Assembly (NCBI GenBank): GCA_030490835.1
Contig: CM059972.1
Span: forward strand, 94,659,137-94,723,136
DNA length: 64,000 bases
Source of the DNA: Annona cherimola
Taxonomy: Eukaryota > Streptophyta > Magnoliopsida > Magnoliales > Annonaceae
Direction of reading: 5' to 3'
Positions 4,831 to 58,910 of this stretch are shown piece after piece. Under the pieces are notes generated by a model. The model did not search any database and had not been told where the DNA came from. It saw nothing but the letters and a program-made list of their open reading frames with translations. Position 1 is the first letter of the stretch. Each line of letters starts with the position of its first letter. A program made the translations under genes and the position numbers.

Positions 4831-4852
4831 CATATAACCAGGATCATGATGC

Positions 4853-6871: not shown

Positions 6872-6903
6872 ATAAACCTCCTATTGGAGGATGAAGAGCA
6901 ACT

Positions 6904-8829
6904 GTGGAGACAACGATAATACACTGGCTCCATGAGGGGGACAAAAACACAGGTTTTTTCCAACGCATGGCATCAAACAAAAGAAGGACCAACTTTACTG
7001 AGGCACTACAACATCATAACGGACAGTGGATCAGGGATCAGGAAAAACTTCAAGACTTGACAGTGGCACATTTCTCCGGGGTGTATTCCTCCTCGGGCCC
7101 AAGGGAGGCGGCTTGGGTTAAAGACCTCATCACCATGAAAATCTCGGATCACCAAAGGAAATCTCTGATCAAAGTGCTGGAATTTGAGGAGGTCGTGAAG
7201 GCAATGAAAGCTAGGAGCACCACAAAAGCCCCGGGTCCGGATGGGATGTCTGCGGGGTTTTTTCAGGCACACTGGAGGATGGTGGGGCGAGATGTGTTTC
7301 ATTGGTGCAAATGGTTCATGGAGGATCAAGATGTGGATACACAAGGTAGCAATATTCGGGACTTAAAACTCCACCACCATCATTTTGGTCCCGAAAAAGG
7401 TTGGTGCTCAATGTTTATCCTAATTTAGACCCATTAGTTTAGGCAATGTGGCCTATAAGATTTTGGCAAAAGTCCTGGAAAACCGTCTAAAGACATCTCT
7501 CTAGGATGTTATTAGCGAGCAACAAAGTGCATTTGTCCTGGGAAGACTGATCACTAATAATATGCTCGTTGCTTACGAAGCGATCCATGCCTTGCGGAGA
7601 CAGAAAAAGGGAAAAAAGCAGGAAATGGCTATAAAGCTGGACATGTCAAAAGCCTATGACAGAGTGGAATGGAGTTTCCTATAACAGATCATGGAAGCGA
7701 TGAACTTCAGTCCCACATGGATAAACTGGATCATGAAGTGTGTAACAACAGTACAGTACCGGGTGAATATCAATGGCTTCAAATCAGGATATTTTCAACC
7801 CTCTAGGGGCCTTCGGCAGGGCGACCCACTATCCCCATACTTGTTTATTATGTGTGCCGAGGGCTTATCTGCTCTCATCTCTAATGCGGTCGCACAGAGG
7901 AGTATTCATGGTATAAGGCTCAATCCATAGGGGTCAACCCTCTCTCACCTTTTATTTTTGGATGACGCTCTCATTTTCCTTCGGGCCACATGTCAGGACA
8001 TCAGGAACTTCATGACCATTCTAAAACACTACTCGGAGGCATCGGGACAGATGATCAACGTTGATAAAACCTCGGTTTTCTTCAGCCTAAATGTGGAAAG
8101 CAATTCAAGGGGAGCGATCACCCAACTGCTTGGTTCCTTGGGGCAGGAGTTTCATCAATATCTTGGCCTACCTGCATGGCTGGGAAGGTCCAAGAAGGGG
8201 ATGTTCAAGGGACTAAAGGAGCGTATATGGTAAAGAATACAGGGATGGAAAGGAAGACTACTCTCATGGGGAGGAAAAGAGTGTTGATTAAGGCGGTTGC
8301 TCAAGCTATCCCGACATACACAATGAGCATTTTCTTGATGCCTAAATCATTTTATAGTGAGATTAATGGGTTGGTAAGCAGATTTTGGTGGGGTAAAAAC
8401 GGAATCAAACGCAAGATGAGTTGGGTAGCCTGGAAAGACATGTGCATTTCTAAGCTGGCAGGAGGTCTTGGCTTCAGAGACATACATAACTTTAATTATG
8501 CCCTCCTCGCCAAACAAGTTTGGAGGTTAACAACCTCAACCAATTCGCTGTGTTTCAAGGTTTTAAAAGCCCGTTACTTCCCGAATGCTGATGGATGGGA
8601 TTGTAAGGTGAGCCCATCAGACTCATTCACCTGGAGGAGCATATTGAAAGCAAGAGAGGTAATACAAAATGGATGCAAATGGCGGATTGGCAACGGGGAA
8701 CGGGTAAGGTTCTTCACAGATAGATGGACAGACACCAAATTACTCAAGGTCGGGCCCCTCCCGCTCTCCATCCCAGAAAACGTGACAGTTAGCCACTTCA
8801 TAAACAAGGAATATGGAACAGGAAGCTAA
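6904..8829 (+). pseudogene. LINE reverse transcriptase remnant
   Basis: Non-LTR RT (RVT_1). Motifs in order: HWLHEGDKNTGFFQ (about 6921-6962), KAPGPDGMSAGFF (about 7225-7263), QQSAFVLGR, IKLDMSKAYDRVEWSFL (about 7630-7680), GLRQGDPLSPYLF (about 7810-7848) and the catalytic FLDDALIF (about 7957-7980; the usual family form is F/L-ADD, here L-D-D-A). The 8176-8829 stretch matches the thumb and post-RT region (VLIKAVAQAIPTYTMSIF; FWWGKNGIKRKMSWVAWK). Stops and frameshifts at about 7426, 7502, 7682, 7928 and 8230 break the protein. Confidence 0.88.
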
Positions 8830-9986
8830 TTGTGGCGGCTGTGGGAGACTATGGCTGGCACGATATAAACATTATTCCCCTCTCCCCATATGTTGAGGAT
8901 GACCGCCTATTTTGGATGCATGAACCAACTGGAGTGTTTTCTGTCAAATTCGCATAAAGAGTTTATGCTCTGGGGATGCGGCCTCCCGTGATGCAACCAT
9001 ATATCAAGCCATTTGGCGAACAAAGTTACCAAGCAAAGTGCTAATCTTCGGGTGGCGACTATTTAGGAATGCTTTACCCACATTGCAGAATTTGTATGAC
9101 AGGGGTATTGTTGTGGATCATTTATGTTTTGTAGGTCCGAGGTCGAGGATGCCAATCATCTGTTCCTGAGATGCGACTATACAGGGAGGACGTGCTGGAG
9201 AGCGGCATGGGTTGCCACATGTGGGTTGACGGTTCAGGAAATTTTGAGAGTGTTAACCTAAGGCCTTATGATGTAGCAATCTTCATCCTGTGTTGTTAGC
9301 GGGTATGGTATCTTCGTAATTCCTTTAGGGAGAATGGTACACGGACGGGGTTGGCAGATACACTTGAATGGTGTGTGGAGTTCCTTGAGGATCACAGAAG
9401 AGCTAAGCCCCTTATGCCGAGTGGTTGCTTGGATCGACCGTTGGTACCTAGGTAGACCAAACCGCCATCGGAGGCTTTCAAAATCAATGTTGATGCAAGG
9501 AAATGCAAGGCTAGAGTTTCCATGGGCTTTGCTGCTGTCATTAGGGATTCTGGGGGCTTCTTTATTGCTGTTCAGGGATGGAGGAGGTGGGGAAACATGG
9601 AGCCCCTGCTCATGGAAGCCCATGCATTCCTGTTGGGGGTCAAGTGGGCTGTCCAGCTCGCGTTCAGGAACATACTGATTGAGACTGACTCTTTCCTTTT
9701 GTGTAACTCTTTAGCAAATGAGGGACCGATTTGTGCTCCGGCTGGGGTTCTCATTGAGGAGATTAAGGTTTTGCTATCCATGACTCCCCATATATCAGTT
9801 CATCATGTATTAAGGCAGGGAAATGCTGTTGCCCATGCCTTAGCAGATTTGATGTCTTTTTCTGTGTTGGATCACCAAACTTGGTGGGGTAACCCCCCCA
9901 AGCCATTTTGGAAAAAATTTGTACAGATAATTTTTTTGGTAATGAAATCATGGATCTCTCAATCCCGGTTCCCTTCCACATTGTAA
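8830..9986 (+). pseudogene. LINE zinc-binding and RNase H domain remnant
   Basis: At about 9000-9150 a frame reads FGEQSYQAKC / LPSKVLIFGWRLFRNALPTL, typical of the zf-RVT region after plant L1 RT. From about 9480 a frame reads FKINVDARKCKARVSMGFAA, VIRDSGGFF, EAHAFLLGVKWA, then IETDSFLLCNSL and RQGNAVAHALADL. This is the RNase H fold with its D-E-D residues and the terminal H-x4-D block. It ends at 9986, about 30 bp before the A-rich tail. Confidence 0.8.
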
Positions 9987-10039
9987 GGGGATCGGGATAG
10001 GGTCATTTCCGTTCATCGAAAAAATAATAATAATAAATA

Positions 10040-21279: not shown

Positions 21280-22190
21280 TTTCCTTGAAAATAAAGTTTG
21301 TTGCAACATGAGGGAGGAGATCCAAATTAAGCAAGGGCATCAAGCAAAGTTTTCAGCAAACATGAATAGAGCCCGCCAACGTCCCATATTCCACATTCTT
21401 TTTGTGGGAAGGCTAAAGAGACAGGAATAGGCACAGCAGAAGAGGCCTGCAAGCTATAATTAATTTTCATCTCTCCTACAGGAATTCAAGTTGCTAGAGA
21501 TTATTAATTAAACTTTTGTGGAAAGTGGACAATAGGAAGAAGGCAGATTCGGTCACGTCTATCATCTTTGTATGGATATGCATACTTCTTTTATTGACTT
21601 GACTCGACTTGACTTGACTTTGCTTTTGCTTGCGTTCAATTCCACATAAGAATTTACAGGGTGGGTACCGTGTACGGTTGCAACTAAAGCCACTTTGAAT
21701 TTTTTTTTTTTTTTTACATATATCCAAACTATGCATTATATTTAAAAATAGTTTTGTTTAGTTGTGAAAAATTAACATAAATTAAAGATTTTTATAATTT
21801 ACAATATTAAAAATATAATTTTAAGAAGCCGCATGCATTTACATTTACTATGGTTGTACGCAATCCAATTAAAATGAATTTTTGTTTTCTAAAATTATTT
21901 TTGGAGAATAATATAATGTATGGCTTGGATTTAAACAAAAATAAGAAATGAAAAATACATGGAGTGCAAGTGTTGAATTATGGGTTGTTTTGGTATAAGA
22001 ATAATGGAATGTATATTATAAGATAAAGTAAGAATAAAAAAAAAAATAAGATAGCTGTATAGAAATATATGAAAAAATTATTGAAAAGGTACGAGAAAGT
22101 TATCGAAACATGGGGTTAAATAGGGAAAAAATATGGTAATTGTGTATTAACTTTTCATTCTGTATTCCCGGCTTAAATTCCAATCCTAAA
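21280..22190. other. Intergenic, no gene seen
   Basis: Contains a poly(T) run near 21700 and a CTTGACTTGACT-type microsatellite near 21597-21620. The last 200 bp (TGGGTTGTTTTGGTATAAGA to AAATTCCAATCCTAAAT) may be a MITE cut by the LTR that follows. Confidence 0.4.
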
Positions 22191-22193
22191 TGG

Positions 22194-23947
22194 TGTTGGT
22201 CCCGAGTTAATGGCTAAACCCAAGAGGGGAGGGGTGAATTGGGTTCTTTAAAAAAATTCTTTGATAAATTAAAATCCTAACCCCTTGAAAGATTAATCCC
22301 CTTTTTGAAAGCAAATAGAGAGTAATAAGATAAAGCAGTAAAAGAAAGCAACAGACAAGATTTATAGTGGTTCGGGCAATCCTTCCCTACTCCACTCTTC
22401 CAAGCTCACACTCCGTTGTGACTTGGGTTCCACTATGTATTCCTCGAATACACTTAGAGTCTCCGCTCTCTTCTAGATTCAAGCTCTAGGGGGCATATAC
22501 AACTTAGAGCCTATGCTCTCTTCTAGATTCCAGCTCTAGGGGGCATAAACAACACACTGCACAAGTAGGTGATGAGTCACACTCCAATCACGCTACTTTG
22601 CATACACTTGATCTTAGCTACCCAAGCTAAATCAAGGTTAATACAACAAGACTTTGAAATAAGAAAAACTACACTTTACAGAGATGTGTAGGCAGGTTGA
22701 GCTCGAGGAAGAAATTAGAAGCAGCTTGGATGAGTATCGATGAAGCAGCTTGCAACTTGAAGCTCTTTCTTCCTTTGAATGTATATGGACCACTCAAAAA
22801 TGGAGAAAAGGAAATGGAAACACTTTCTTGCACTTCTTTTCTCTCTTTGGACTTTGTGATGTGTATATGAGTGTCTTGTATATTCTTTCACGTTCATTTG
22901 AGTGTCCTTTTATAGAGTGAGGAAGATTTGAACGTTGTAGAGGTGGTTGGCGCGCAATAAATGATCTCCAACGTTCAAAAATTCGAACGTTATTTTCCAA
23001 GTCGAAGATGGAGTCGACTTGGCCTGCGACTTGGCTTCCAAGTCGCACCTGGAGTCGACCTCGTGTGCGACTCCAGTTCTTCAGATTCCCAAGTCTGAGT
23101 CTTGGGTCGACATGGCCTCAGACTTCAACTCAAGTCGATCCTGGAGTCGACTTGGGTTGCGACTTGGTTCGGCCTTTGCTAAAAATGCTTTGATCTTCAT
23201 TTAATTTGCTTCTATCTTGCTTGGCTTTCTTCCTTTAGTCCTTTTGATTCTTGAATGATTGATTCATGCACCTTGCTTTGCGTCTGACTCATTTGATCTT
23301 TAAGACTTGAATATTTGAAACATACTTGTATCTTTGCCTTGGGCTTGATAGACTTGATTTGATCTTGAACTTGAATCCTTGCTTTGAACTTGAGATAAAT
23401 CAAGTTGTTCTTTGAAAATGTATTTGCATCTTGATTTGGATTATTCAAGTGGATTCTTGGAATGACCTTGAATCTGCATCTTTGAAGCTTGAAAGTCTCA
23501 AGTCGAGGATGGAGTCGACCTTGTCTGCGACTTCACCCAAGTCGCACCTGGAGTCGACTTGGCTTGCGACTTGGGCAACTTTGTGCCCCAAAATCAGGTC
23601 TGGACAGTTTTCTTCGACTGAAGTCGATAGTGAGGTCGACTTCGTGTTCGACTTGGCTTACCAAGTCGCAAGTGGAGTCGACTTAGCCTGCGACTTCACC
23701 TGCTACTCTTCCATTTCTGATTTTGCCTTTGAGGTTCAAAGTCAAGTCGATAGTGGAGTCGACTTTGGAATCGACTTCACCCTAAGTCGAAGTCCTAGTC
23801 GACTTGGGGATCGACTTGGCTATCTCAATTCCTTAAATCATTGAGCAAACTCATTAGTTCTCTTTAATATACTCAAATTAGCCTTTGTTAATCATCAAAA
23901 CTTAAGCTTTGGTCAATTTTGTTTTGTTTTAAACATTATTTCTAACA
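22194..23947 (-). mobile_element. Solo LTR of the Sirevirus family (middle age)
   Basis: Starts TGTTGGTCCCGAG and ends TCTAACA. It aligns along its length with the LTRs at 33984 and 43138 in the same orientation. The flanks are AATGG (22189-22193) and AATGA (23948-23952), a target duplication with one change. It keeps the TATA box (inverse of CCTTTTATAG, 22906-22915) and both GTCGAC palindrome clusters (about 23000-23170 and 23500-23820). It has two copies, not four, of the ~50-bp CTAGATTC repeat (22473, 22523). No internal element follows, so it arose by recombination between LTRs. Confidence 0.92.
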
Positions 23948-23952
23948 AATGA

Positions 23953-33983: not shown

Positions 33984-35782
33984 TGTTGGTCCCGAGTAGA
34001 TGGCTAAACCCAAGAGGGGAGGGGTGAATTGGGTTCTTTAAAATTTCTTTGATAATTTCAAAGATCTTAACCCCTTGAAAAAGTTAATCCCCTTTTTAAG
34101 CGAATGGAGAGCAAATAAGATAAAGCAGTAAAAATAAGTAGAACACAAGATTTATAGTGGTTCGGGCAAACCTTCCCTACTCCACTCTTCCAAGCTCACA
34201 CTCCGTTGTGACTTGGGTTCCACTATGTATTCCAAGAATACACTTAGAGTCACCGCTCTCTTCTAGATTCAAAGCTCTAGGGGGCATACACAACTAGAGC
34301 CACTTGCTCTCTTCTAGATTCAAAGCTCTAGGGGGCATATACAACTAGAGCCTCTTGCTCTCTTCTAGATTCAAAGCTCTAGGGGGCATATACAACTAGA
34401 GTCTCTTGCTCTCTTCTAGATTCAAAGCTCTAGGGGGCATATACAATCACTTGCACAAGTAGGTGATGAGTCTTACTCCAATCACACCCTACTTTGCATA
34501 CACTTGATCTTAGCTACCCAAGCTAAATCAAGATTTATACAACCAAATAAAGAAATGAATAAAAACTACACTTTACAGATTTGTGTAGGCAGTTTTGAGC
34601 TCGAGGAAGAAATCAAAAGTAGCTTGGATGATGATTGTTGAAGCAACTTGCAGTTTGAAGCTCTTTCTTCCTTTGAAACACTCAAATATGGAGAAAAAGT
34701 ATTTGAAAGTCTTTCTTGCACTTCTTTTCTCTCTTTGATCTTTTGAGTAGTGTCTCTTATCTTTCTCACGTTCATTTGAATGTCCTTTTATAGATTGAGG
34801 AAAATATGAACGTTGTAGAAGTGGTTGGTGTGCAATAAATGAACTCCAACGTTCAAAAATTTGACCGTTATTCTTCAAGTCTGAGATGAAGTCGACTTGG
34901 CCTGCGACTTGGCTTCCAAGTCGCACATGGAGTCGACTTGGCCTGCGACTTGGGTTTTTCAGAAACTCAAGTCTGAGACTTGGGTCGACTTGGCTTTCAG
35001 ACTTCAACTCAAGTCGATCCTGAAGTCGACTTGGGTTGCGACTTGGCTTGGTCTATTGCAGAAACGCCTTGATCTTCTTGACATGTCTTGAATCTTGCAA
35101 ACCATTTGAAAGCTTTGAGTTCTTGCACAATATATGTATGTTCCTTGCTTTGCTTTGGACTCACTTGGTCTTCATGACTTGGATTTTACTCCATTTGGAA
35201 GCTAGCTTGAAGATTTGCTTTGAGCTTGATAGACTTGATTTGAATGTAGAACATGATTCTTAACTTTGAAATTGACTCATTTGTTTTTCATCTTGATTCC
35301 TTGGACTTGAGTGATAATTCCTCTTGAATATCTTGAAAACAGCATCTTTGAAAGTTTGAACTTCTCAAGTCGTGGATGGAGTCGACCTGTTCTGCGACTT
35401 CACCCAAGTCGCATCTGGAGTCGACTTCGTTTGCGACTTCGTTATGTTCATTCCCACTTTTCAGCTCTGGATACTCCAAGTCGATGCTGGAGTCGACTTC
35501 GTCTGCGACTTGACTTCCCAAGTCGCAAGTGGAGTCGACTTGACCTGCGACTTCACCTGTTGCCTTTTGGGATTCATTCTCAAGTCGATATTTGAGTCGA
35601 CTTTGGGATCGACTTCACCCAAGTCGAAGTCCAAGTCGACTTGGAGATCGACTTGACCTCTTTGATTTCCTTAAACATTTGTCAAACATGTTAGTACTCT
35701 TTATATATTCAAATAAGTTCTTGTTAATCATCAAAACTTAGTCTTTGGTCAATTTAAATAATTTTGTACATTGTTTCCAACA
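33984..35782 (-). repeat. 3' LTR of the Sirevirus
   Basis: Same length and layout as the 5' LTR. It has ten GTCGAC sites at 34891, 34932, 34984, 35025, 35381, 35420, 35492, 35534, 35596 and 35635. Pairs are 39-42 bp apart. Flanking half sites read AAGTCGC before and GCGACTT after each centre. The 51-bp repeats have CTAGATTC at 34263, 34314, 34365 and 34416. It provides polyadenylation for the element's transcript in the usual retrotransposon model. Confidence 0.95.
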
Positions 35783-35799
35783 ATCTCCCTCTTTTTGAT
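35783..35799 (-). promoter_or_regulatory. Polypurine tract at the 3' LTR
   Basis: Reads ATCAAAAAGAGGGAGAT on the minus strand, ending exactly at the LTR start TGTTGG. It is the expected site of plus-strand priming. Confidence 0.88.
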
Positions 35800-36140
35800 G
35801 ATTGACAAAACTTCATTTGAGTTGATACCTTTCAAGCATTAATCATGTTCATATGCCTTTTGAAAAACAGAGCTTTTTGAATACCTTTCAAGTAAATCAT
35901 GTTGGATACTTTATTAATCATTAAGAGTACTTTGTATTGTAATCATTAATCAAATATATCATTCATTCAAACTCTATATCAAACATATATCAATCATAAA
36001 CCAGTTATCATATCAAATAAACCAAACATCATTTCATATATATGAAGTTTCATTACAGAATACAATGAAGCATAAATGAAACTATCCTAGATACAAACTA
36101 CCCAATCCAAAAACACTCAAATCTAACCTAAATCTAACCT

Positions 36141-36160
36141 ATCTTCCTCCCCCTTTTTGT
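36141..36160 (-). promoter_or_regulatory. Upstream polypurine tract
   Basis: Reads ACAAAAAGGGGGAGGAAGAT on the minus strand, directly after the ORF3 stop. It duplicates the tract next to the 3' LTR. Multiple polypurine tracts are a known Sirevirus trait; they prime plus-strand DNA synthesis. Confidence 0.7.
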
Positions 36161-36163
36161 CAA

Positions 36164-37741
36164 TCATTCAAAAAGTACCAAAGACTTGGTAAATTGAAAT
36201 TGAGAGATGGGATATGGAATAGGTTTGATGGGACAATGATGGGCCGAGGAGTAAACAAGAGAAGCGTGATCGGGAGTTGCCTCTCTATGAACTGAACCCG
36301 ACTCGTAGGGATCGAGTTCAGGCATGGGTCTCTTCTTATGATGGCCTGATGCAAGATGATATCGGATTTTTCGCATTTCCCGCTCGATTCTATCTTGTCG
36401 GGAATGCATATCTTCAATCGCATTAAGGACACCGGTGACAAGACTTGTCATCCGGTTTTCTTGATAGCCCATTTCTGCCCTCATGGCAATGATTTCATCT
36501 TTGAGATCCTTTAGGGTGACTTCCTCAGAAGAGGTTGGAGGCACCCGTTCTCTTGCAGCGGATCCTTGTGGGGAGTAGGAGCCATGGGATTGAGGTGATG
36601 GTGGCTCTTCTGGAGCAGCCGGTGCTTCGGGAGGTTGCTCCCCCTCAGCTTGTGCTTGGTCCTCCTGATGCTCTTCTTCTGAAGCGTCTTGCCTTAGTTC
36701 AAGCAAATTGATCTTCATTCTTTGTATGAGAGCTTTATTTATGGCATTTGTGGATTTGAGCACTTCGAAAGGCTCGCCTTCAATATCCACTTTGAAGAAT
36801 TCCAAAATCTTTGTAATCCATGTGCCATAGGGAAGAACTCCTCGTGGGTTGTCTTTTCTATTTCCCAAGGCTTCTAGAAATAATTTCGGTATGCTTACTT
36901 TGACCCTGTTGGCCACTTTCCATAATATCCCAGCTTCCTGTGGATTCAATTGATTTCTTCCACCGCCCTTTGGGTAGATGCAGTGGGCAATAAGAAGCCT
37001 TAGTACCCGTAGCCTAGGTGACAAATCCATGTACCGAAGGAATTTGATTCCCGGATGGTACTTGTTGCTCCGGGTGAGCTGATTATACATTTGATCTATA
37101 GTGAGATCTTCTGGAATAGGCTCATCCTCATACGGGACTCCAAGTATGTGTCCTAAATGACTCATTACTTCAGTTGGTCCTGCAACTATTCCGATTCCAA
37201 GATCCATTTCGACTCCTTTGACGAATGTTCCAAAGTATTCTTCATCCCAAAGATAATAAAACATTCGAGTAAGATCTGGATAGACCCTTTCATCTTCCTT
37301 TAGCAAATTAGTCCATCCTTGAAAATCCAATAGATCTTCTATGTCGGATCCATATTCTTTCAGGAAATTAAAATCTATAATCTTGGGTATGAATACCTTC
37401 CGTTCGTAGAACTTTTTGTAGAATCGGCTATGTTGGAGCTCGGTTTTGAAGTAGGTAGTGGGCATCTTCAAAACTTGGGCTTTCCCAGCTGCAGTGCCCC
37501 TTCTGCTTGTCCCGGATTGTGTGCTCTGTGAGGTTTGTTGATTTTCCGACCTGGGTGCTTGATCAGATGATTGAGTGGAAGTTTGGAACCGAACCCTTTT
37601 ACCCGTAGAAGTTGAAGGTTCTTCTCGAACCCGTTTTGCAGGTGTCCTAGCTCTCCTAGGGACTTCTTTCTCAGTGTGAGATGTGGGAGGTCTAGGCGCA
37701 GGCTTTTTTGATGGTTTGGAGACGGCTTTCTTCGGGGCCAT
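36164..37741 (-). CDS. Sirevirus third ORF (525 aa, downstream of pol)
   Basis: Intact ORF in the position of the 'env-like' gene of Sireviruses. Residues 1-95 are basic and Lys/Pro/Ser/Thr-rich (KKAVSKPSKKPAPRPP), a probable nuclear-targeting or nucleic-acid-binding tail. Residues about 100-345 form a globular domain resembling the plant transposon protein domain PF20167 (SPRLRVLRLLIAHCIYPKGG, NQLNPQEAGILWKVANR). A Glu/Gln/Pro-rich linker follows, then a likely coiled coil (about 405-460: LKDLKDEIIAMRAEMGYQEN). No signal peptide or membrane helix is visible, so it does not look like an envelope protein. Its function is unknown. The ATG is the first after a C/T-rich leader and the palindrome cluster. 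Confidence 0.85.
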   Translation of the reverse strand: MAPKKAVSKPSKKPAPRPPTSHTEKEVPRRARTPAKRVREEPSTSTGKRVRFQTSTQSSDQAPRSENQQTSQSTQSGTSRRGTAAGKAQVLKMPTTYFKTELQHSRFYKKFYERKVFIPKIIDFNFLKEYGSDIEDLLDFQGWTNLLKEDERVYPDLTRMFYYLWDEEYFGTFVKGVEMDLGIGIVAGPTEVMSHLGHILGVPYEDEPIPEDLTIDQMYNQLTRSNKYHPGIKFLRYMDLSPRLRVLRLLIAHCIYPKGGGRNQLNPQEAGILWKVANRVKVSIPKLFLEALGNRKDNPRGVLPYGTWITKILEFFKVDIEGEPFEVLKSTNAINKALIQRMKINLLELRQDASEEEHQEDQAQAEGEQPPEAPAAPEEPPSPQSHGSYSPQGSAARERVPPTSSEEVTLKDLKDEIIAMRAEMGYQENRMTSLVTGVLNAIEDMHSRQDRIEREMRKIRYHLASGHHKKRPMPELDPYESGSVHREATPDHASLVYSSAHHCPIKPIPYPISQFQFTKSLVLFE

Positions 37742-38010
37742 TGAGATGGGAATTTTGGATTTTGGAATTTATGGAATCTGAGAGGGAATGCTTGTGAAAG
37801 AGAGAAAGTTTGAGAAAAAGAGGAGAGTTGAGAGAGAGATATTAAGGAGAGAGGCAGTGAGAGAGTAGAAGTTACCGGAGAGGGAGAGGATTCCCGGGGA
37901 GGAAAGGGAAATCGCCGGAGGAAAAGAGGAAAACAGAGAGGCCGAAAAAAAATGAGGAAGAAAGAAGAGAGGAGAGAAGAAAAAGACTCGGAAGTCGGAC
38001 GGTCGCGCGC

Positions 38011-38155
38011 GCGGAGTCGACTTGCCCTAGGCGAAGTCGACTTCGGTCCTTCTGGAGTCGACTTCGCCTGGGGGCGGAGTCGACTTCGACCCTAGCGGAG
38101 TCGACTTCGCTTCTGGAGGCGGAGTCGACTTGGCGTCCTTGGAGTCGACTTGACT
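38011..38155 (-). promoter_or_regulatory. Phased GTCGAC palindromes upstream of ORF3
   Basis: Seven GTCGAC sites, each within an AGTCGACTT core, at 38016, 38036, 38057, 38079, 38100, 38124 and 38144 (spacing 20, 21, 22, 21, 24, 20 bp). They lie between the end of pol and ORF3, 270-405 bp before the ORF3 start. Below them is a long C/T-rich (minus strand) leader from about 37995 to 37745, which resembles a pyrimidine patch of plant core promoters. The same palindrome clusters upstream of the LTR TATA box. A role as an internal promoter or enhancer for ORF3 is inferred. Confidence 0.5.
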
Positions 38156-38201
38156 CATCGACTTGACATTTTCCAATTTTAATTTTCTTATGTATTTTTC
38201 C

Positions 38202-39635
38202 TTAGTTAAGCTCTATCATCCCCATATCATTCCTAATCTTACAAAATGAATCTTTGGCTAGAGGTTTGGTAAAGATATCAGCAATTTGGTCTTCTGTTTT
38301 CACATATTCTAAGCATACATCATGATTTTCAACATGTTCTCTAATAAAATGATGTCTCACATCAATATGTTTGGTTCTAGAATGTAATACAGGATTTTTA
38401 GTCAAACAAATTGCACTTGTATTATCACATCTAATAGGAATATCAATATAATCAATACCATAATCCTTTAATTGCTGTTTCATCCAAAGTAATTGGGCAC
38501 AACAACTACCGGCGGCTATGTATTCGGCTTCCGCAGTAGATAGTGCAACACTTGTTTGTTTTCTTGAATGCCATGAAACTAGCATATGTCCAAGAAATTG
38601 ACAAGTTCCACTGGTACTTTTTCTATCTACTTTATATCCGGCAAAGTCTGCATCCGAATAGCCGATTAGATCAAAGGTTGACCCCTTTGGATACCATAGT
38701 CCAAGGTTTGTAGTTTTTATCAAATATTTAAAAATTCTTTTTACAGCAAGTAGGTGTGATTCTTTGGGACATGCTTGAAATCTAGAGCACATACAAACAC
38801 TAAATAAGATATCGGGTCTAGAAGCAGTTAAATATAACAAGGATCCAATCATGCTTCTATAGAGCTTTTGATCGATACTTTTACCGTTTTCGTCCGTGTC
38901 GATCTTGATTGTAGAGCTCATTGGAGTGTTTGCCCCTTTGCTATTCTGCATTCCGAATCTCTTGAGCATTTCTTTGACATACTTGGACTGGTTCAAAAAT
39001 ATTCCTTCACTTTGTTGCTTGATTTGCAGTCCAAGGAAGAAGTTTAATTCTCCCATCATGCTCATTTCGAATTCGCTCTGCATTATCTTAGAAAACTCTT
39101 GACAAAGTTTTTCGTCAGTAGCACCAAATATTATGTCATCCACATAAATTTGTACAATCAAAATATTTTTATTTTTGTATTTAATGAACAAAGTAGTGTC
39201 TACTTTCCCTCTTTGAAACTCATGATCAATCAAGAAACTATTTAACCTTTCGTACCAAGCTCTTGGTGCTTGTTTTAGTCCATATAACGCTTTGGTTAAT
39301 TTATAAACATACTTTGATTGATCCTTTTCTTCAAAACCAGGGGGTTGTTCAACATATACTTCTTCATTCAAATAACCATTCAAAAATGCGCTTTTTACAT
39401 CCATTTGAAACAATTTGAAGTTCATATGAGAAGCAAATGCTAGTAGGATGCGTATGGCTTCTAATCTAGCCACAAGTGCATATGATTCTTCAAAATCAAT
39501 TCCTTCTTCTTGGGAATACCCTTTGGCTACTAATCTTGCCTTGTTTCTAATTACAAGACCGCTTTCGTCTAATTTGTTCCTAAATACCCATTTTGTACCA
39601 ATGACTGTATGATTGTTTGGTCTAGGAACTAAATG
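38202..39635 (-). CDS. pol: Sirevirus pol, part 2: reverse transcriptase and RNase H
   Basis: Same frame as part 1, open from just after the TGA to 38202. RVT_2 domain: KTKWVF-like entry, then [59 protein letters not shown] and the catalytic YVDDIIFG. RNase H follows: [20 protein letters not shown], then [20 protein letters not shown], and the closing [15 protein letters not shown]. All key acidic residues are present, so the enzyme part itself looks undamaged. There is no own start ATG; it is expressed only if the TGA is bypassed or supplied in trans. Confidence 0.92.
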
Positions 39636-41228
39636 TCATACATTGTTTCTTTCGAATTGATTTAGCTCTTCTTGCATTGAAGTAACCCAATTTTCATCAT
39701 TAAGAGCTTGTTCAATGGTATTTGGTTCAATTTTCGATACAAACGCATATTGGCCATAAACGTTTTGTTTTGATCTTCTAGTTTTTACTCCTTCATATAT
39801 GTTTCCAATAACTTGTTCAATTGGATGGGCATTTTTAAACTTTAAATCAGTTGGAGGTTTGTAAGATTCATTACCTTCACTTACCTCTTCCTCCTCTGGA
39901 TTTTCTGGCTTGAGCTCGAGTTCCTTTGGTTGTTCTTTGCCTTTCGTCTCATCTGCATCACTTAGTTCATCCTCCTTTCTCGGAGTTTGGTTAAATTCAT
40001 CAAATACAACATGTATGGATTCTTCTACAACTTGATTTCGTTTATTGAATACTCTATATGCTTTGCTATTTGATGAATAACCAAGGAATATAGCCTCATC
40101 ACTTTTGGCATCTAATTTTCCCAAGTTAACTTTTCCATTGTTTAAAACATAACATGTACATCCAAAAACATGAAAATAAGATATATTTGGTTTCCTTCCT
40201 TTCCAAAGTTCATATGGAGTCTTTTTCAAGATTGCTCGAATGGTAACACGATTCAAAACATGACAAGCTGTACTCACAGCTTCACCCCAAAATTTCTTGG
40301 ATAGATTGCTCTCATTTAGCATAGTTCTAGCCATCTCTTGTATAGTTCTATTTTTCCTTTCAACTACTCCATTTTGTTGTGGAGTTCTTGGTGCAGAAAA
40401 TGTGTGGTGAATTCCTTTTTCATTACAAAATTCCATGAATCGTTTGTTTTCAAATTCGCCACCATGATCGCTTCTTATGGTCACAATAGTACTCTGTTTT
40501 TCATTTTGCACCAAATTCACAAAAGTTGCAAACATAGAGAAGGCTTCATCTTTACTAGCTAAGAGAATTATCCAAGTGAATCTTGAAAAATCATCAACTA
40601 TGACAAATACATATTTCTTTCCACCAATGGTTAAAATGTCGGATGGCCCGTATAGATCCATATGTAGTAATTCAAGTGGCTTTGTGGTGGAAATTTCCTT
40701 TTTGGTAGAGAAAGGCATCTTGGGTTGTTTTGATAATTGACATGCCTTGCAAATTTTGTCTTTGTCATATTTCAACTTTGGTAATCCTTCTACCAAATTC
40801 TTTTTCCAAAGGGTCTTTATATTTCCCATGTTTACATGTCCAAGCCTTTTATGCCAAACCCATGGATCATTATCAATGGCCATAAGACATTGACCATTCA
40901 ATTCATCAAGTGAAACCAAATAAACATTTCCATGTCGTTTACCACTAAACATGATATGTTCTCCATCAAATACATTACATATAGATGATTCAAACACAAC
41001 TTTATATCCTTTATCACATAATTGGCTAATACTCATTAAATTGTGTTTGAGTCCTTCAACAAACAAAACATCTTCCATGCATGCATTTGAGGTACTAAGT
41101 ATATTTCCTTTACCTTTAATTTTACCTTTTTCATTATTTCCAAAAGCAACCATTCCATCGTTGCAAGGCTTAAGTTTATGAAACAAACTTCTTTCACCGG
41201 TCATATGCCTTGAACAACCGCTATCCAT
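39636..41228 (-). CDS. pol: Sirevirus pol, part 1: protease end and integrase
   Basis: 530 codons, opening at [11 protein letters not shown], whose DSG is the Copia aspartic-protease active site. The frame is open about 60 nt further upstream with no ATG, so the true start is by frameshift or fusion to Gag. The pre-integrase HHCC finger uses H126, H131, C160 and C163 (WHKRLGH...CKACQ). The integrase core has D191 (MDLYGP), D254 (RSDHGGEF) and E290 (VVERKNR). It makes the 3'-end processing and strand-transfer enzyme. It ends at an in-frame TGA (39636-39638) in the linker before RT, where related elements read through. The frame continues beyond, so this looks like a point mutation. Confidence 0.92.
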
Positions 41229-41286
41229 GAACCATTCATTGTTTGCCTTTGCCTTAAAACATGTCTGAAAAATAAGGAAATAAATC

Positions 41287-43089
41287 TTATCTTTTTGGTA
41301 CCCATTTTATGGGTCCATTTGGGTTAGTAATAGAATCTAATCTAAGTTGATCTAACTTTGAGAGCCCAAATCTTGTGTTTCTTGGAACCCAAACTAATTT
41401 AACACCATGGTCATATAGTTTCTTAAAATTACATTTGTAAGTTTTATGACCCATCTTATTGCAGAAATTACAAGCCAAAGGTAATCTTGGAGTAGGTCTC
41501 CAAGCATGCAAAGGTTCAATCATTGGTCTTCTAGTCCACTTAAAATTTTTCTTTTGTGGCTTGTATATAGATGCATTTTTAGTTTGATTTTTCTCAAGTA
41601 TTTGTTCATTTGATTTGCTACTTTCTCCTTGCTCAAATGTATGATACCCAAGACCTCTTTTATGTGTTTGGGAGGTCATATTCAGAAACATTTTAACACT
41701 TTCTCCTAGATTAGAGAACTTAGCTAATGATTCATTTAATGATTTGTTCTCCATTTTCAGCAATTCAGTTTCATCTTTCAATTTGACTAATCTTTCTGCA
41801 AGTTTACCATTTACAATTATTGTTGCATCACATTGTCTCTTCTTAATTGTAAACTTGCTTCCTAATTTCTTCATTTCTTCATATAATGAATCATATGCAG
41901 TTTGTAGTTCATCTAATTCAGTACATTTGAGGCATTCAAGAGAGGAAGAATAACTTGAATTAGAAAGGGAGAGTTTGGAACTTACCTCTTCATTGCTTGT
42001 GTCTTTTGTTGAGGTAATTTGTTCTCCTTGCTCGATTTGTGCCATGCAGCAAATTCTTGCACATTCTTCCGCCTCTATATCATCGGTTGAGAAGCTACTC
42101 GTCGTAGATTCTTCATCATTTACGTACATGCCTCTTCCTTTGTATTTCTGGAATCTTCTATTGTTCCCTCGATCCTTTCTTTGTTCTTTTGCCTTGTTTT
42201 CTTCGGGAGTTGAACATTGAGCCTGCATATGTCCCGAACCGCCGCATCGGTAGCACTTGGTTGATTCTTTCTTCTTCTCTTGGGGAGTTCTTTCTTTGAA
42301 GCTTCTGAAATTTTTGCCTTTCCTCACAAATTTTCTGAATCGTTTTGTGAGTAGAGCAATCTCGTCGTCATTTTGAGAAGAAGATGTGTCATCGGTGTCT
42401 TGTGCGGCTTTTAAGGCAATTGCTCTTTTGCCCCTGTGTTGATCTTCATTCCTTTTCTTAATTAGCTCATGTGACATAAGTGAGCTAATTAAGTTTTCAA
42501 GCTTCAGCGTGTTGAGGTCTTTGGCTTCTTCAATTGCAGTGATCTTTGGAGTCCATGATTCGGGTAGAGCTCTTAAAATCTTCATGACCTGCTCAGATTC
42601 AGATATTGCTTTTCCAAGACCTTTTAAAGCATTAGTAATCTTAGAGAATCTAGCAAACATTTCAGAAATATTTTCTGTTTCTAGCATTCTAAAGTTCTCT
42701 AGTTCTCCAATCAAAATATTCCTTCTCGTCCCTTGGACTTGAGAAGTTCCTTCGTAGATAGAGATTAGTGTATCCCATATCTCTTTGGCGGTTAAGCAAG
42801 AGGATACTCTATCATACTCGGAAGCAGTGAGAGCACAGAATAAGGAGTTCATAGCTTTGGCATTGCTCTTCACTATTCTTACTTCCTCATCGGTCCATTT
42901 GGAAGCCCGTTCATCGGTAGGCAGTATTACTCCATCTTGGATAGCAATCCAAGAGTCCATATCGGTAGCCATGATGAGTTGCTTCATACGAAGCTTCCAA
43001 TATCCAAAATTGTTCCCATCAAACAACGGTGGCCTTGTAAAGGATTGGCCTTCAGCAAATGCGGGAACGGAAGTAGATTGGGATGCCAT
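41287..43089 (-). CDS. gag: Sirevirus Gag polyprotein
   Basis: 600 residues; capsid/nucleocapsid protein that packages element RNA. The N-terminal PPLFDGNNFGYWKLRMK opens the UBN2 (Copia-type Gag) domain, roughly residues 20-220. A CCHC knuckle CYRCGGSGHMQAQC lies at residues 279-292. A second one, CNFCNKMGHKTYKC, lies at about 540-553, and between them is a Ser/acidic stretch followed by a likely coiled coil (LDELQTAYDSLYEEMKKLG). Two knuckles and a long Gag are normal for Sireviruses. The start is the first ATG after the primer-binding site. The frame stops at 41287 after KWVPKR, and pol continues in another frame. Confidence 0.92.
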   Translation of the reverse strand: MASQSTSVPAFAEGQSFTRPPLFDGNNFGYWKLRMKQLIMATDMDSWIAIQDGVILPTDERASKWTDEEVRIVKSNAKAMNSLFCALTASEYDRVSSCLTAKEIWDTLISIYEGTSQVQGTRRNILIGELENFRMLETENISEMFARFSKITNALKGLGKAISESEQVMKILRALPESWTPKITAIEEAKDLNTLKLENLISSLMSHELIKKRNEDQHRGKRAIALKAAQDTDDTSSSQNDDEIALLTKRFRKFVRKGKNFRSFKERTPQEKKKESTKCYRCGGSGHMQAQCSTPEENKAKEQRKDRGNNRRFQKYKGRGMYVNDEESTTSSFSTDDIEAEECARICCMAQIEQGEQITSTKDTSNEEVSSKLSLSNSSYSSSLECLKCTELDELQTAYDSLYEEMKKLGSKFTIKKRQCDATIIVNGKLAERLVKLKDETELLKMENKSLNESLAKFSNLGESVKMFLNMTSQTHKRGLGYHTFEQGESSKSNEQILEKNQTKNASIYKPQKKNFKWTRRPMIEPLHAWRPTPRLPLACNFCNKMGHKTYKCNFKKLYDHGVKLVWVPRNTRFGLSKLDQLRLDSITNPNGPIKWVPKR

Positions 43090-43119
43090 TTCAATAAGAT
43101 CTCTTTGATAAACTCAAAG

Positions 43120-43135
43120 ACCTGCTCTGATACCA
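43120..43135 (-). promoter_or_regulatory. Primer-binding site (initiator Met tRNA)
   Basis: Two bases inside the 5' LTR the minus strand reads TGGTATCAGAGCAGG. This is complementary to the 3' end of initiator methionine tRNA and primes minus-strand DNA synthesis. Gag starts only about 30 bp further on. Confidence 0.92.
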
Positions 43136-43137
43136 CT

Positions 43138-44936
43138 TGTTGGTCCCGAGTTGATGGCTAAACCCAAGAGGGGAGGGGTGAATTGGGTTCTTTAAAATTT
43201 CTTTGATAATTTCAAAGATCTTAACCCCTTGAAAAAGTTAATCCCCTTTTTAAGCGAATGGAGAGCAAATAAGATAAAGCAGTAAAAATAAGTAGAACAC
43301 AAGATTTATAGTGGTTCGGGCAAACCTTCCCTACTCCACTCTTCCAAGCTCACACTCCGTTGTGACTTGGGTTCCACTATGTATTCCAAGAATACACTTA
43401 GAGTCACCGCTCTCTTCTAGATTCAAAGCTCTAGGGGGCATACACAACTAGAGCCACTTGCTCTCTTCTAGATTCAAAGCTCTAGGGGGCATATACAACT
43501 AGAGCCTCTTGCTCTCTTCTAGATTCAAAGCTCTAGGGGGCATATACAACTAGAGTCTCTTGCTCTCTTCTAGATTCAAAGCTCTAGGGGGCATATACAA
43601 TCACTTGCACAAGTAGGTGATGAGTCTTACTCCAATCACACCCTACTTTGCATACACTTGATCTTAGCTACCCAAGCTAAATCAAGATTTATACAACCAA
43701 ATAAAGAAATGAATAAAAACTACACTTTACAGATTTGTGTAGGCAGTTTTGAGCTCGAGGAAGAAATCAAAAGTAGCTTGGATGATGATTGTTGAAGCAA
43801 CTTGCAGTTTGAAGCTCTTTCTTCCTTTGAAACACTCAAATATGGAGAAAAAGTATTTGAAAGTCTTTCTTGCACTTCTTTTCTCTCTTTGATCTTTTGA
43901 GTAGTGTCTCTTATCTTTCTCACGTTCATTTGAATGTCCTTTTATAGATTGAGGAAAATATGAACGTTGTAGAAGTGGTTGGTGTGCAATAAATGAACTC
44001 CAACGTTCAAAAATTTGACCGTTATTCTTCAAGTCTGAGATGAAGTCGACTTGGCCTGCGACTTGGCTTCCAAGTCGCACATGGAGTCGACTTGGCCTGC
44101 GACTTGGGTTTTTCAGAAACTCAAGTCTGAGACTTGGGTCGACTTGGCTTTCAGACTTCAACTCAAGTCGATCCTGAAGTCGACTTGGGTTGCGACTTGG
44201 CTTGGTCTATTGCAGAAACGCCTTGATCTTCTTGACATGTCTTGAATCTTGCAAACCATTTGAAAGCTTTGAGTTCTTGCACAATATATGTATGTTCCTT
44301 GCTTTGCTTTGGACTCACTTGGTCTTCATGACTTGGATTTTACTCCATTTGGAAGCTAGCTTGAAGATTTGCTTTGAGCTTGATAGACTTGATTTGAATG
44401 TAGAACATGATTCTTAACTTTGAAATTGACTCATTTGTTTTTCATCTTGATTCCTTGGACTTGAGTGATAATTCCTCTTGAATATCTTGAAAACAGCATC
44501 TTTGAAAGTTTGAACTTCTCAAGTCGTGGATGGAGTCGACCTGTTCTGCGACTTCACCCAAGTCGCATCTGGATTCGACTTCGTTTGCGACTTCGTTATG
44601 TTCATTCCCACTTTTCAGCTCTGGATACTCCAAGTCGATGCTGGAGTCGACTTCGTCTGCGACTTGACTTCCCAAGTCGCAAGTGGAGTCGACTTGACCT
44701 GCGACTTCACCTGTTGCCTTTTGGGATTCATTCTCAAGTCGATATTTGAGTCGACTTTGGGATCGACTTCACCCAAGTCGAAGTCCAAGTCGACTTGGAG
44801 ATCGACTTGACCTCTTTGCTTTCCTTAAACATTTGTCAAACATGTTAGTACTCTTTATATATTCAAATAAGTTCTTGTTAATCATCAAAACTTAGTCTTT
44901 GGTCAATTTAAATAATTTTGTACATTGTTTCCAACA
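43138..44936 (-). repeat. 5' LTR of the Sirevirus
   Basis: Drives transcription on the minus strand. From the U3 side it carries palindrome cluster 2 (about 44520-44810), cluster 1 (about 44040-44185), then a TATA box. The motif GTCGAC stands at 44045, 44086, 44138, 44179, 44535, 44646, 44688, 44750 and 44789. A tenth site at 44574 is lost by one G-to-T change relative to the other LTR. Four 51-bp tandem repeats lie at about 43405-43600, downstream of the transcription start. Differences from the 3' LTR seen by eye are at 43152, 44574 and 44819. Confidence 0.95.
43938..43947 (-). promoter_or_regulatory. TATA box in the 5' LTR
   Basis: Reads CTATAAAAGG on the minus strand, a near-consensus plant TATA box. 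It sits about 90 bp downstream of palindrome cluster 1. Conserved at 34784-34793 in the 3' LTR and 22906-22915 in the solo LTR. Confidence 0.75.
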
Positions 44937-45025
44937 AAATCCCACCCGTTTCTTAAAAATGGATGGCTATTACAACTTTTTCACAATTTTCTCCACTTTT
45001 TTACCACTTATTTAGGAGTGTTATA

Positions 45026-55669: not shown

Positions 55670-55835
55670 CTGTATAAATTCAATAGCCAAATCAGTTACA
55701 AAATTCTCAACAACATCTAAGGATACAGGGACTCTTTTATACTATGTTCGATCACTGACCCAGCGCACATGTAACGGGCAGCTAGTCTCCTGCCTAGAGT
55801 TAGGGAGAGATGACGAGAAAGATAGTGTGAGATCA

Positions 55836-56285
55836 ACGGAGAGAGAGAGAGAGAGAGAGAGAGACGTAAAGGGGAGAAGAAGATGACTCCTACCTGGACT
55901 GCGGCCGGATCTCAGGCACGGTGGACGATCGCCGACGCGGGCGGAAGCGGCATCAGTAGGGACCGAAGATCGCCGACAATGAGATGCAAGAGAGAGAAAA
56001 GAGAGAGGGAGAGGAAAGGGAGGGATGAGGCTCGAAGGACAGGAGGGAGAGAACAGAGGGAGAGGGAAGAGGGAAAAACAGGAGGGAGAGGAGAGCGAGA
56101 GGGAAGAAGGAAAAATCGGAGGAAAACGGGAGGGAGAGAAGAGCGAGAGGGAGAGAAGACAGAGGGAAAAATGGGAGGGAAAACGGGAGGGAGAGAAGAA
56201 AGGGAGAGGGAAGATGGAAAAACGGGAGGGAAAACAGGAGGGAGAGAAGAGAGGGAGAGGGAAGGAGGGAGGGGGACTTCTCTAC
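55836..56285. repeat. Purine-rich minisatellite and GC-rich leader
   Basis: (GA)n at about 55836-55864. A GC-rich 90-bp stretch follows at 55894-55985, ending on the minus strand in a donor-like CCAG/GTAGGAG that could splice to the exon at 55669. Then come purine repeats such as GAGGGAAAAACGGGAGGGA with 30-45 bp units to 56280. The plus-strand ORFs here (Arg/Glu/Gly-rich) are repeat artefacts. The minus strand is C/T-rich, as in some plant 5' leaders. Confidence 0.6.
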
Positions 56286-56616
56286 ACGCGGGTAAAAAAA
56301 TTTCTATTCCACTTATGCCCTTCTAAATCTCAACCGCATATATCAAATGGACGACGGATTGACCATTTTCACGGTAAACAAATGTGCAAACATTTTCACC
56401 GAAACCGGACTCCTTTTTTTAAATAAGAAAAGTATTTTTGAGAAAATGGAAGAGTCTATCCCAGTATAATCTCGTCCTTGTTATGAACAACCCCATCGAG
56501 GGTATCCGTCTTCACATCAGTGATGGTGTTAGCACTAGCTATGGCCTTAGAATCTGCGCTGAGGGCGACTGGTGACGTCATCGACGTGGCTGAAACTGCG
56601 ATGAGAAGGAAGTCGA
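56286..56616. other. Spacer before the hAT-like element
   Basis: No gene. 56420-56495 (AGTATTTTTGAGAAAATGGA, then CTCGTCCTTGTTATGAACAA) resembles 59425-59495 in the same orientation. Confidence 0.4.
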
Positions 56617-56644
56617 GCGATGAGTAGGGGTGCAACTCGGGCTC

Positions 56645-56755
56645 ATGAAACTCGGGTTCACCTCGACCCTAACCCTAACCCTATTTGTAAATCTTCAACC
56701 CTAACCCTAACCCTAACCCTATTTGTAAAACCTCAACCCTAACCCTATTTTTGAA
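56645..56755. repeat. Telomere-like CCCTAA repeats in hAT subterminal zone
   Basis: Three short runs of AACCCTAACCCTAACCCT separated by ATTTGTAAATCTTC-type spacers. They are part of the subterminal repeat array, with matching GGGTTCGGGTT sequences at the other end, and are not a telomere. Confidence 0.7.
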
Positions 56756-57138
56756 ATTCGGGCTCGGGTTGAGTTTCGGGTTGAGTTTCGGATTGACATG
56801 TTACTATAAATATATATCCTACACTCATTTAATCACAAATCTATTGCTAAAAAAAATCTAAAATAACAATTTATTAGAAGAAAGCAAAAAAAATTTAAAT
56901 ACCATTTAAGAGTATTAAGAAGAAAAACCTGTTTTGGGCATTCTCTTCGCATTAAGTTGAATAGCAACCATATTTTGATGAATGTAGAAGTACAACCTTT
57001 GTCCGTCAGTTTTTAACATGCCCGATGTCAAGTATCACTGCATGTCAAGGATATCCCATTTATTCTCCCATGATGTCACTCTACCTAGACGATCACAAAA
57101 ATATTATAGTATTCATGTGTATCGCTACTTCGCATTAC

Positions 57139-57986
57139 CCTTTCATAGTCATCCAGCCAATTCTCTTCCTCGGAAGCAAACATCCATTTCTCCACCTTAT
57201 CCAAAACGTCCTTTCTGCTTAGAGCCTGCTCTTTAGCCTTTTTAATCTGATCATCCATACCAGCAAGAAGTTCAGACAGATCTATAGTTCCTGCAAATAA
57301 ACATGAAAAAAAAATTATGAGTTGAATATAGTCTTCAAGAGAAATGTTAAAGATCACCATCAGAGAAAGTAATGAAACATAACCACAGGCTTTTCTCAAG
57401 GGATTCGATACTCATACATGAAAGAAATTTTAAACATAAAAACTGGTTTCAGGAAGCAAAGCATTCTGTACACTTTAGTACAAATGGTAGTCCCCATTGT
57501 TCTATAGAAAATAAACGAAATTTATTTTTAAAAAATTTAAATAGACAGACAGACACACAGAAAGAGAGCATACAAACCAGAATCAATAAGGCTGAGAAGA
57601 ATCTGCCTTGCAGCCTCACTATCAACATCCATGTGGACTCCCCTGTAGATTTCTTCTACCTCTTTTTGCTTCTTGAAAACTAGTTCCTTCATCTTGCTAA
57701 CTTTCAGAACATTCAACCTCTGGACTTCAGCTTCAGTCTACTAGTAAAAAAGGAAAGGGAGAAAACGAGTCAAGCTACAATCAGAAGCAAAATTGTAAGC
57801 GTCAAGTTTTCAAAGAGGAGATAAGTTCACCTGCTCAATGACATCCATTGCAAGGAGGCCTTGCCCTGATATATCATCAGCTTTGACACACATTAAGCAT
57901 GCAACATGGTTGAAACGTTTTTGCTCTTCCACGGGGATATCCATCAGGTTCCATAATTCCACAAGTGTACCGCCTAGATCTTGAAG
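57139..57986 (-). pseudogene. Captured MAP65 gene fragment, three intact exons
   Basis: Exons 57986-57831 (156 bp), 57737-57578 (160 bp) and 57290-57139 (152 bp) have GT-AG borders and join in frame to 156 codons without a stop. The peptide reads LQDLGGTLVELWNLMDIPVE, TEAEVQRLNVLKVSKMKEL, FKKQKEVEEIYRG, then IDLSELLAGMDDQIKKAKEQ, LSRKDVLDKVEKWM and EEENWLDDYER. This is the central part of the plant MAP65/PRC1/Ase1 family, which bundles antiparallel microtubules. The N-terminal dimerisation region and most of the C-terminal microtubule-binding part are absent. Introns are retained, so capture was at DNA level. A chimeric transcript could encode a partial coiled-coil protein; whether it does is unknown. 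Confidence 0.88.
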
Positions 57987-58389
57987 CTACAGTGGAAAAT
58001 AAAGTGCATCAGTAGTGAACGAGTATGTAAACCTGATGCAGAGAATCCAATTTGCATTATCATTACTGGAAAATTCAGAAACATCAGATAGCCATTGAAA
58101 CAGACTAATAGAGCATATAAGACTTCAAACTTGAGCAACAGGGACCTAGAGATGAGAAAGGGCATGTAGGACTCCAGTTTCAACTCAGAGGAAGCGGTTC
58201 TTTACTAGATAAAGGATCACGCACTGCATCCGAAAGTGGTCCTCTATTAATGACTAAACCATCTACGAGATCCAGATATGAAGTTTGAAGCATGCAATGA
58301 TTTCTTTCCTGAAAGAATGTTATGCATTGAACATACCCTCATCCAAAATGTAGGCTTTATGCACATGGCACAAGGCGTGTTAAAAACTG

Positions 58390-58705
58390 AAGGAGGGAGG
58401 GGCAGCCAGGCAGGACGAGAGAAGCCACTCTCCGGGATGCAGCTGCTGTGGGCGACTAGCCGGCTGTTTCTGCGGCTGCCATGCTGGCTGCTAGATGCTG
58501 CCGTGGCCGGGACGAGCTCGCCGACGTCGGAGGTGAAGAAGGATCTGGATTCTGGACGACAGAGGAATTCTCGAGGACGAATCGCAGTCGCAGGAGAGCT
58601 GGAGAGGGCTGTGGGAAGATCAGATTTGGCGGAACACAGGAAAATTTTGGGGGGGAAAATCCGAAATCAGGGCACCCATCGCCATCGCACGAAAAATCAC
58701 TTTTA
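58390..58705 (-). other. GC-rich, exon-like segment inside the hAT-like element
   Basis: GC content is visibly far above the rest of the element. It lies upstream, on the minus strand, of the MAP65 exons. A minus-strand frame is open for about 100 codons (PDFGFSPPKFSCVPP, then SSPPTSASSSRPRQHL). It may be a first exon or promoter captured from another gene; no family is recognised. The plus-strand ORF over the same place (58278-58931) runs into the terminal repeats and is not credible. Confidence 0.4.
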
Positions 58706-58910
58706 TACAGTAAGCTATCAATTTGGGTTCGGGTTGCGCGGGTTAGGATTCTTATCAACCCGAAACCGAACCGATTTCAAATCGGTCTCGGGTTCAACCC
58801 GAGAAATCGGGTTCGGGCTGGAGAATAGGCAGTTTCAACACTGCCAAAATGCGGGTTCGGCGGGCCGGGTTCGGGCTGAACCCGGCCCAAGTTGCACCCC
58901 TAGCGATGAG

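Follow-up and report, generated by a model that had tools for sequence, protein, structure and literature searches.

A non-autonomous hAT element carrying part of a MAP65 gene in Annona cherimola

The window considered here is a stretch of 64,000 nucleotides of Annona cherimola DNA (C2:94,659,137-94,723,136), analysed together with a search of the whole assembly (791.8 Mb in 1,370 contigs). It contains a 2,278-bp element at 56625-58902, flanked by an exact 8-bp target-site duplication, GCGATGAG, at 56617-56624 and again at 58903-58910. The left terminal inverted repeat (TIR; 56625-56637, plus strand) reads TAGGGGTGCAACT and pairs perfectly over 13 bp, or at 17 of 18 positions over 18 bp, with the right TIR at 58890-58902 (minus strand); these limits, repeats and flanks are those given by a first-pass annotation of the sequence. 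The left arm (56625-57005, plus strand), which carries CCCTAA- and CGGGTT-type repeats, belongs to a hAT family, has a match in each of the 20 relative regions fetched from the genome, and corresponds to the transposase gene's 3' side in the relatives L021 and L024. The right arm (58374-58902, minus strand) belongs to the same family, is GC-rich, and corresponds to the 5' side of that gene in L024. GA-type purine-rich tandem repeats (55826-56290) lie immediately to the left of the element.

No other pair of perfect 13-bp TIRs in the window, at spans between 100 and 15,000 bp, is flanked by an exact 8-bp repeat; at a TIR length of 10 bp there are two such pairs, whereas 20 dinucleotide shuffles gave 0.05 on average. 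The motif CGGGTT, counted on either strand, occurs 12 times in the terminal 206 and 192 bp of the element, not at all in its middle 1,880 bp, and six times in the remaining 61.7 kb. A six-frame Pfam search of the element at E values up to 0.1 returned MAP65 only and no transposase, and an Rfam search of the window gave no match. The element thus combines TIRs and target-site duplications with host coding DNA and no transposase, which places it among Pack-TYPE elements; the 8-bp duplication, the short TIRs, and the hAT transposase of relatives that share its ends identify it as a non-autonomous hAT type (Pack-hAT, or Ds2-like in maize terms).

The captured host DNA occupies 57027-58365 on the minus strand, is 96.7% identical to its parent, and comprises exons 5-7 of the parent, a MAP65 gene with a role in cell division, with introns 5 and 6 in full and introns 4 and 7 in part. 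Exon A (parent exon 5; 57986-57831, 156 nt), exon B (parent exon 6; 57737-57578, 160 nt), and exon C (parent exon 7; 57290-57139, 152 nt), all on the minus strand, add up to 468 nt in one stop-free frame, each with AG before it and GT after it. Together they match Pfam PF03999 with E = 2.3e-17 (positions 229-354 of the 477-position profile), and they may be like Arabidopsis MAP65-5. The first-pass annotation had described three MAP65 exons with splice sites and frame intact in an element without a transposase, and both points are borne out; the exons are as it named them, whereas the host DNA extends, with its introns, beyond the named exon span. Its reading of capture further depended on MAP65 sequence not continuing outside 56625-58902, and a six-frame Pfam search of the flanks at 53.9-56.6 and 58.9-64.0 kb found none, although a single small exon could escape such a search because exon C alone gives just E = 0.0058. 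Among collections of viral contigs and genome contigs, 4 and 21 pattern matches were obtained, none of which was confirmed as a MAP65 relative. The sole PDB match, to k-cTRP5 (E = 8.6e-05), was taken as a chance likeness.

At least five full-length copies of the element, including that in the window, are present in the genome, on C2, C5, C6, C1, and C4. Counts of copies and relatives given here are lower bounds, as scoring covered 40 of the 2,706 first-look candidates; the 40 consist of the five copies, one parent, and 34 other matches. Four of the five copies have distinct exact 8-bp duplications: the window copy, L002 (CATGCTAC), L003 (GTCGACTC), and L004 (CTGATAAG). At L005 the two sides, compared by eye, show a 1-nt difference (CAATGACT against CATGACT, one base fewer). 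Because the copies lie at different places with distinct duplications, transposition must have followed the capture, and the suggestion that the element moves pieces of host genes is upheld.

Differences between copies range from 0.3 to 2.1%, that is, from 7 of 2,278 sites (window and L002) up to 48 of 2,326 (L004 and L005); six sites join the window copy with L002, and two join L003 with L004. The window copy lacks 61 bp of the right arm that L002 holds (at about 58591), and this gap adjoins a repeated GCGACTGCGATTCGTCCT. Against the parent, the copies show 35-39 differences over 1,335-1,336 sites, 27 of which are common to all five, and the mean distance is 0.028 (about 2.8%). With background substitution rates of 1.3e-8 or 7e-9 per site per year, which transposon DNA may exceed, the copies and the parent would have separated 1.1-2.0 million years ago and the window copy and L002 0.12-0.22 million years ago. 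The element had been called young, and a difference of 0.3% from the nearest copy and about 2.8% from the parent agrees with this.

Exon lengths and splice borders are kept in all five copies, and the 156-codon frame is intact in four, L005 having two stops. In the exons, two replacement and six silent changes separate the parent from the copy consensus; from the consensus to single copies there are eight replacement and five silent changes (one silent change, found in two copies, is counted twice). Replacements make up 0.80 of the possible single changes, so the changes private to copies look near neutral. The shared changes are no proof of constraint within the element, as they include the parent's own branch; they fit a constrained source slightly unlike the present parent gene, and therefore the donor allele may differ from the assembly sequence.

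The parent piece lies at C2:3662464-3663800, on the same contig as the window and about 91 Mb from it, and aligns at 96.7% over 1,341 columns. This alignment to the parental locus, which had been proposed as a check, contains the introns, so the capture is of genomic DNA. Of the parent locus (L013; C2:3,658,400-3,668,300), just bases 4065-5401 match the element; since this is the single match in 9.9 kb, the parent piece has no element arm for about 4 kb around it, and the MAP65 element therefore has, as is expected of a Pack-TYPE element, a recognizable parent gene at another place that does not itself lie in an element. PF03999 matches at the parent locus, where a gene model built by eye has 11 exons and 582 codons in frame, with an uncertain first-intron border because that intron starts with GC; the captured part corresponds to codons 251-406. 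Beyond the parent and the copies, PF03999 is found at C4:1178008, C6:9017513, C2:16219450, and C5:137128, in a genome search that recovered four of the five copies and missed the one on C1.

Both junctions between the captured DNA and the arms contain short filler sequences. At the left junction, 57006-57026 is a 21-nt filler, TCAGTTTTTAACATGCCCGAT, which repeats a piece of the element's right arm in inverted form: of its 21 positions, 19 agree with the minus strand of that arm in L025-L029, 18 in L024, 17 in L018, and 15 in L015, whereas neither the opposite strand of these eight elements nor the parent locus gives a match better than 13. In L024 and most of the other native left arms shown, the sequence is CCTTTGTCCGTCCTGCAATTTAACATGAATATC or nearly so and diverges from the MAP65 copies after about 57005-57007, and the MAP65 copies shown (window and L002) have CCTTTGTCCG, then TCAGTTTTTAACATGCCCGAT, then parent sequence. 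The native left arm also contains TTTAACATG near the filler, so the filler could be partly native and the templated piece shorter; TTTAACATG may be the microhomology used for a template switch. At the right junction, parent sequence ending in TGCACA is followed by an 8-nt filler, TGGCACAA (58366-58373), which is absent from the parent and from native right arms at this place, and then by the native arm. A 32-nt inverted pair (57002-57033 and 58363-58394) was considered as the trace of a nested second element around MAP65 and rejected, as genome comparison resolves it into the inverted filler and the matching stretch of right arm.

The fetched relatives, 20 regions covering 21 of the 34 other scored matches, show the family to which these arms belong. 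In 15 of the 20 (L021 after extension) the element is complete and its 8-bp duplication exact, and together with the full-length copies elsewhere, at least four in number, this provides the relatives with common ends on which the first-pass reading of the element depended, a reading that is supported and largely holds. In L020, L022, L031, L032, and L033 a right end was not found within the 2.4-3.0 kb examined. The left-arm match reaches base 381-396 in 16 regions and base 291 in the other four (L025 and L027-L029); the right-arm match covers about 600 columns in several relatives, 183 in L014 and L019, and 97 in L016.

Two relatives contain transposase sequence, in each case on the minus strand and matching PF05699 and PF14372. 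L021 (4,176 bp, with TGTGGGAA on both sides) has an open 684-codon hAT transposase frame, of which a 435-codon part gives E = 9.2e-24 for PF05699 and 1.2e-19 for PF14372; in L024 (4,727 bp) the frame is interrupted by stops. Both have the same left arm as the MAP65 element, and L024 also has its right arm. The right ends of L021 and L024 are 74% alike over the last 185 columns, with the rest of the arm unmatched, so L021 need not be the active partner of the MAP65 subfamily.

Five other interior types, without transposase, sit between related ends: those of L014/L019 (2,141 bp), L015/L018/L030, L016 (about 560 bp of whose left side is common to L017/L023), L017/L023, and L025/L027/L028/L029; the interior of L026 is a mosaic of the last type and L024. 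Among 11 selected open reading frames (ORFs) from these five types and L026, none matched above the Pfam cut-off, with weak matches below it for RICTOR_M in L025 (E = 0.043) and SH3_2 in L016 (E = 0.1). One stretch, L017:3139-3414, present also in L023, weakly resembles a receptor-kinase activation loop (VGDFGLAKLLP; E = 0.029 for the best of four PDB matches) and gave no Pfam match; the L017/L023 interior is perhaps a second captured gene. L014 (on C4) and L019 (on C1) are alike over their whole 2,141 bp at a rounded 100% and have different duplications (CCTAAGAG and AGAATCAC), and the family may therefore have moved very recently.

The element very probably arose as a non-autonomous hAT (Pack-hAT) by capture during break repair with template switching and was then mobilized in trans. 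An element of the autonomous type would have suffered a break, or possibly an excision, and lost its interior; the gap would have been filled by copying, presumably beginning with a brief inverted copy taken from the right arm of the element itself, switching to 1.34 kb of the MAP65 gene elsewhere in the genome, and then returning into the right arm. As the product kept both ends, a transposase of the family could have cut and pasted it in trans, and it is now at no fewer than five places. The inverted 21-nt filler is the feature that suggests such template switching, and in maize, filler copied from near a break is described in the excerpts of PMC2686159.

A different route, put forward for Pack-TYPE elements including hAT in the available text of PMC8903248, is the fusion of neighbours: two hAT insertions would have flanked the MAP65 piece and been mobilized jointly. 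That both arms of the MAP65 element come from one family accords with fusion, yet the parent locus has no match to an element arm across the 9.9 kb of L013 (arms could have excised), the interior of the element has no TIR-like site at up to two mismatches beyond its own ends, and the left filler is an inverted right-arm copy, which fusion does not predict. With the junctions, the lack of arms around the parent piece, and the genomic nature of the capture favouring template switching, fusion is unlikely. Retroposition and Helitrons also transport gene pieces in plants, and either might have moved MAP65 exons; introns 5 and 6, the TIRs, and the 8-bp duplications refute retroposition of a MAP65 mRNA and Helitron capture alike, leaving them next to no credibility. 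An equally negligible chance attaches to the idea that unrelated inverted and direct repeats merely happen to surround a degenerate MAP65 pseudogene: the window does contain nine pairs of TIRs with duplications at 8 bp (shuffle mean 0.95), but the five copies, alike in their ends and different in their duplications, refute this idea, and the ends recur in other elements.

Whether the MAP65 element is expressed is a separate matter. The first-pass annotation raised the possibility of a chimeric or regulatory transcript, and a gene of this kind would use the transposase promoter, splice a leader to the MAP65 exons, and yield either a 183-codon middle-region protein that could interfere with the parent or a silencing RNA. 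A TATAAAA at 58701-58707 (minus strand), 196 bases from the right end, is presumed to be the core promoter of the transposase leader; it is present at 196 in all five MAP65 copies and in 9 of 13 other elements, being absent from L014, L016, L017, and L023, and the MAP65 exons have the same orientation as the transposase in L021 and L024. A possible splice donor, AGG/GTATGT (58335-58337, minus strand), where the parent has GTACAT, has the top score of 35 GT sites in 58000-58700 and occurs in all five copies; it would link the leader in frame to exon A, giving a 183-codon ORF in three of the five. L004 and L005 shorten this ORF, to 168 and 126 codons, the changes private to copies are mostly replacements at a near-neutral share, and of the 78 TATAAAA motifs across the window 15 are accompanied, under the same rules, by a donor and an ATG in frame, so an expressed chimeric gene is doubtful. 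The donor at 58337 was also rejected as the end of a transposon leader exon, as it sits, according to the parent, in captured intron 4, and the same 15 of 78 sites apply as control. The wider proposal, that one hAT family repeatedly refilled its arm-to-arm gap with varied pieces of the genome by template switching from the opposite arm and that the MAP65 version, which retains the presumed promoter of the transposase in the same orientation, gives rise to a chimeric transcript or protein with a MAP65 fragment that acts on cell division, is quite improbable as a whole.

Capture of genes by hAT elements had been regarded by the first-pass annotation as less well known than capture by other transposons; extracts of three papers describe it in plants and animals (PMC3260210, PMC8903248, PMC8277862), although one of them (PMC3260210) itself calls it rare. 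Since Pack-hATs are already published, the MAP65 element belongs to a known kind. In the available passages on maize, two Ds2 and nine Ds-l4 elements contain gene fragments, and multicopy Ds-l4 elements with transcribed sequences are also present (Du et al., 2011; PMC3260210). Among these, Ds2-22 is similar to the MAP65 element in having autonomous-type hAT ends, 8-bp duplications, and an interior swapped for a genomic gene fragment, in that case exons 5-6 and their intron copied from another chromosome; as far as these passages go, it differs in terminal sequence and donor gene, and the MAP65 element has in addition five copies of one capture and the inverted-arm filler (PMC3260210). The ends of the MAP65 element are TAGGGGTGCAACT with CGGGTT/CCCTAA-type repeats; in the maize Ac/Ds family, Ac has an 11-bp TIR and AAACGG subterminal repeats.

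Pack-hATs have been annotated in rice and maize and, according to the text available, are non-autonomous hAT elements with 8-bp duplications, host coding DNA, and multi-copy clusters, as is the MAP65 element; the junctions of the latter point to template switching rather than to the fusion of neighbouring insertions proposed there (PLoS Genet 2022; PMC8903248). In animals, hAT elements account for 208 of 370 Pack-TIRs, and excerpts of that study favour gap filling for single-copy cases, with microhomology in 190 of 281, and leave multicopy cases more open (Nat Commun 2021; PMC8277862). Those animal elements resemble the MAP65 element in often being of hAT type and in multicopy cases with distinct duplications; in the same excerpts they are mostly single-copy, with 160 of 281 less than 15 kb from the parent, whereas the MAP65 element is multicopy with a parent about 91 Mb away (PMC8277862). 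MAP65 was not mentioned among the literature matches listed for combinations of MAP65, hAT, transposon, and gene fragment. The element is a well-resolved example of a known transposon route for shuffling gene pieces and an unusually complete case, with five dated copies, both junctions, the parent gene, and a relative whose transposase frame is open; in the inverted-arm filler it offers a testable mark for gene uptake by hAT elements, on which published models disagree, some proposing neighbour fusion and others gap filling.

Elsewhere in the window, possible LINE-like remains lie at 6400-9990, where an ORF at 9456-9983 matches RVT_3 (E = 8e-17) and four neighbouring ORFs gave no Pfam match. 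A Copia-type LTR retrotransposon with gag and pol domains occupies 33984-44943 on the minus strand, and its LTRs of about 1.8 kb are 99.7% alike (5 mismatches in 1,806). Between its pol region and 3' LTR lies an additional ORF of 534 codons that resembles PF20167 (Transposase_32) at 36 bits, against a cut-off of 45. A more diverged LTR-like copy of this element (about 76%), possibly a solo LTR, lies at 22187-23948.
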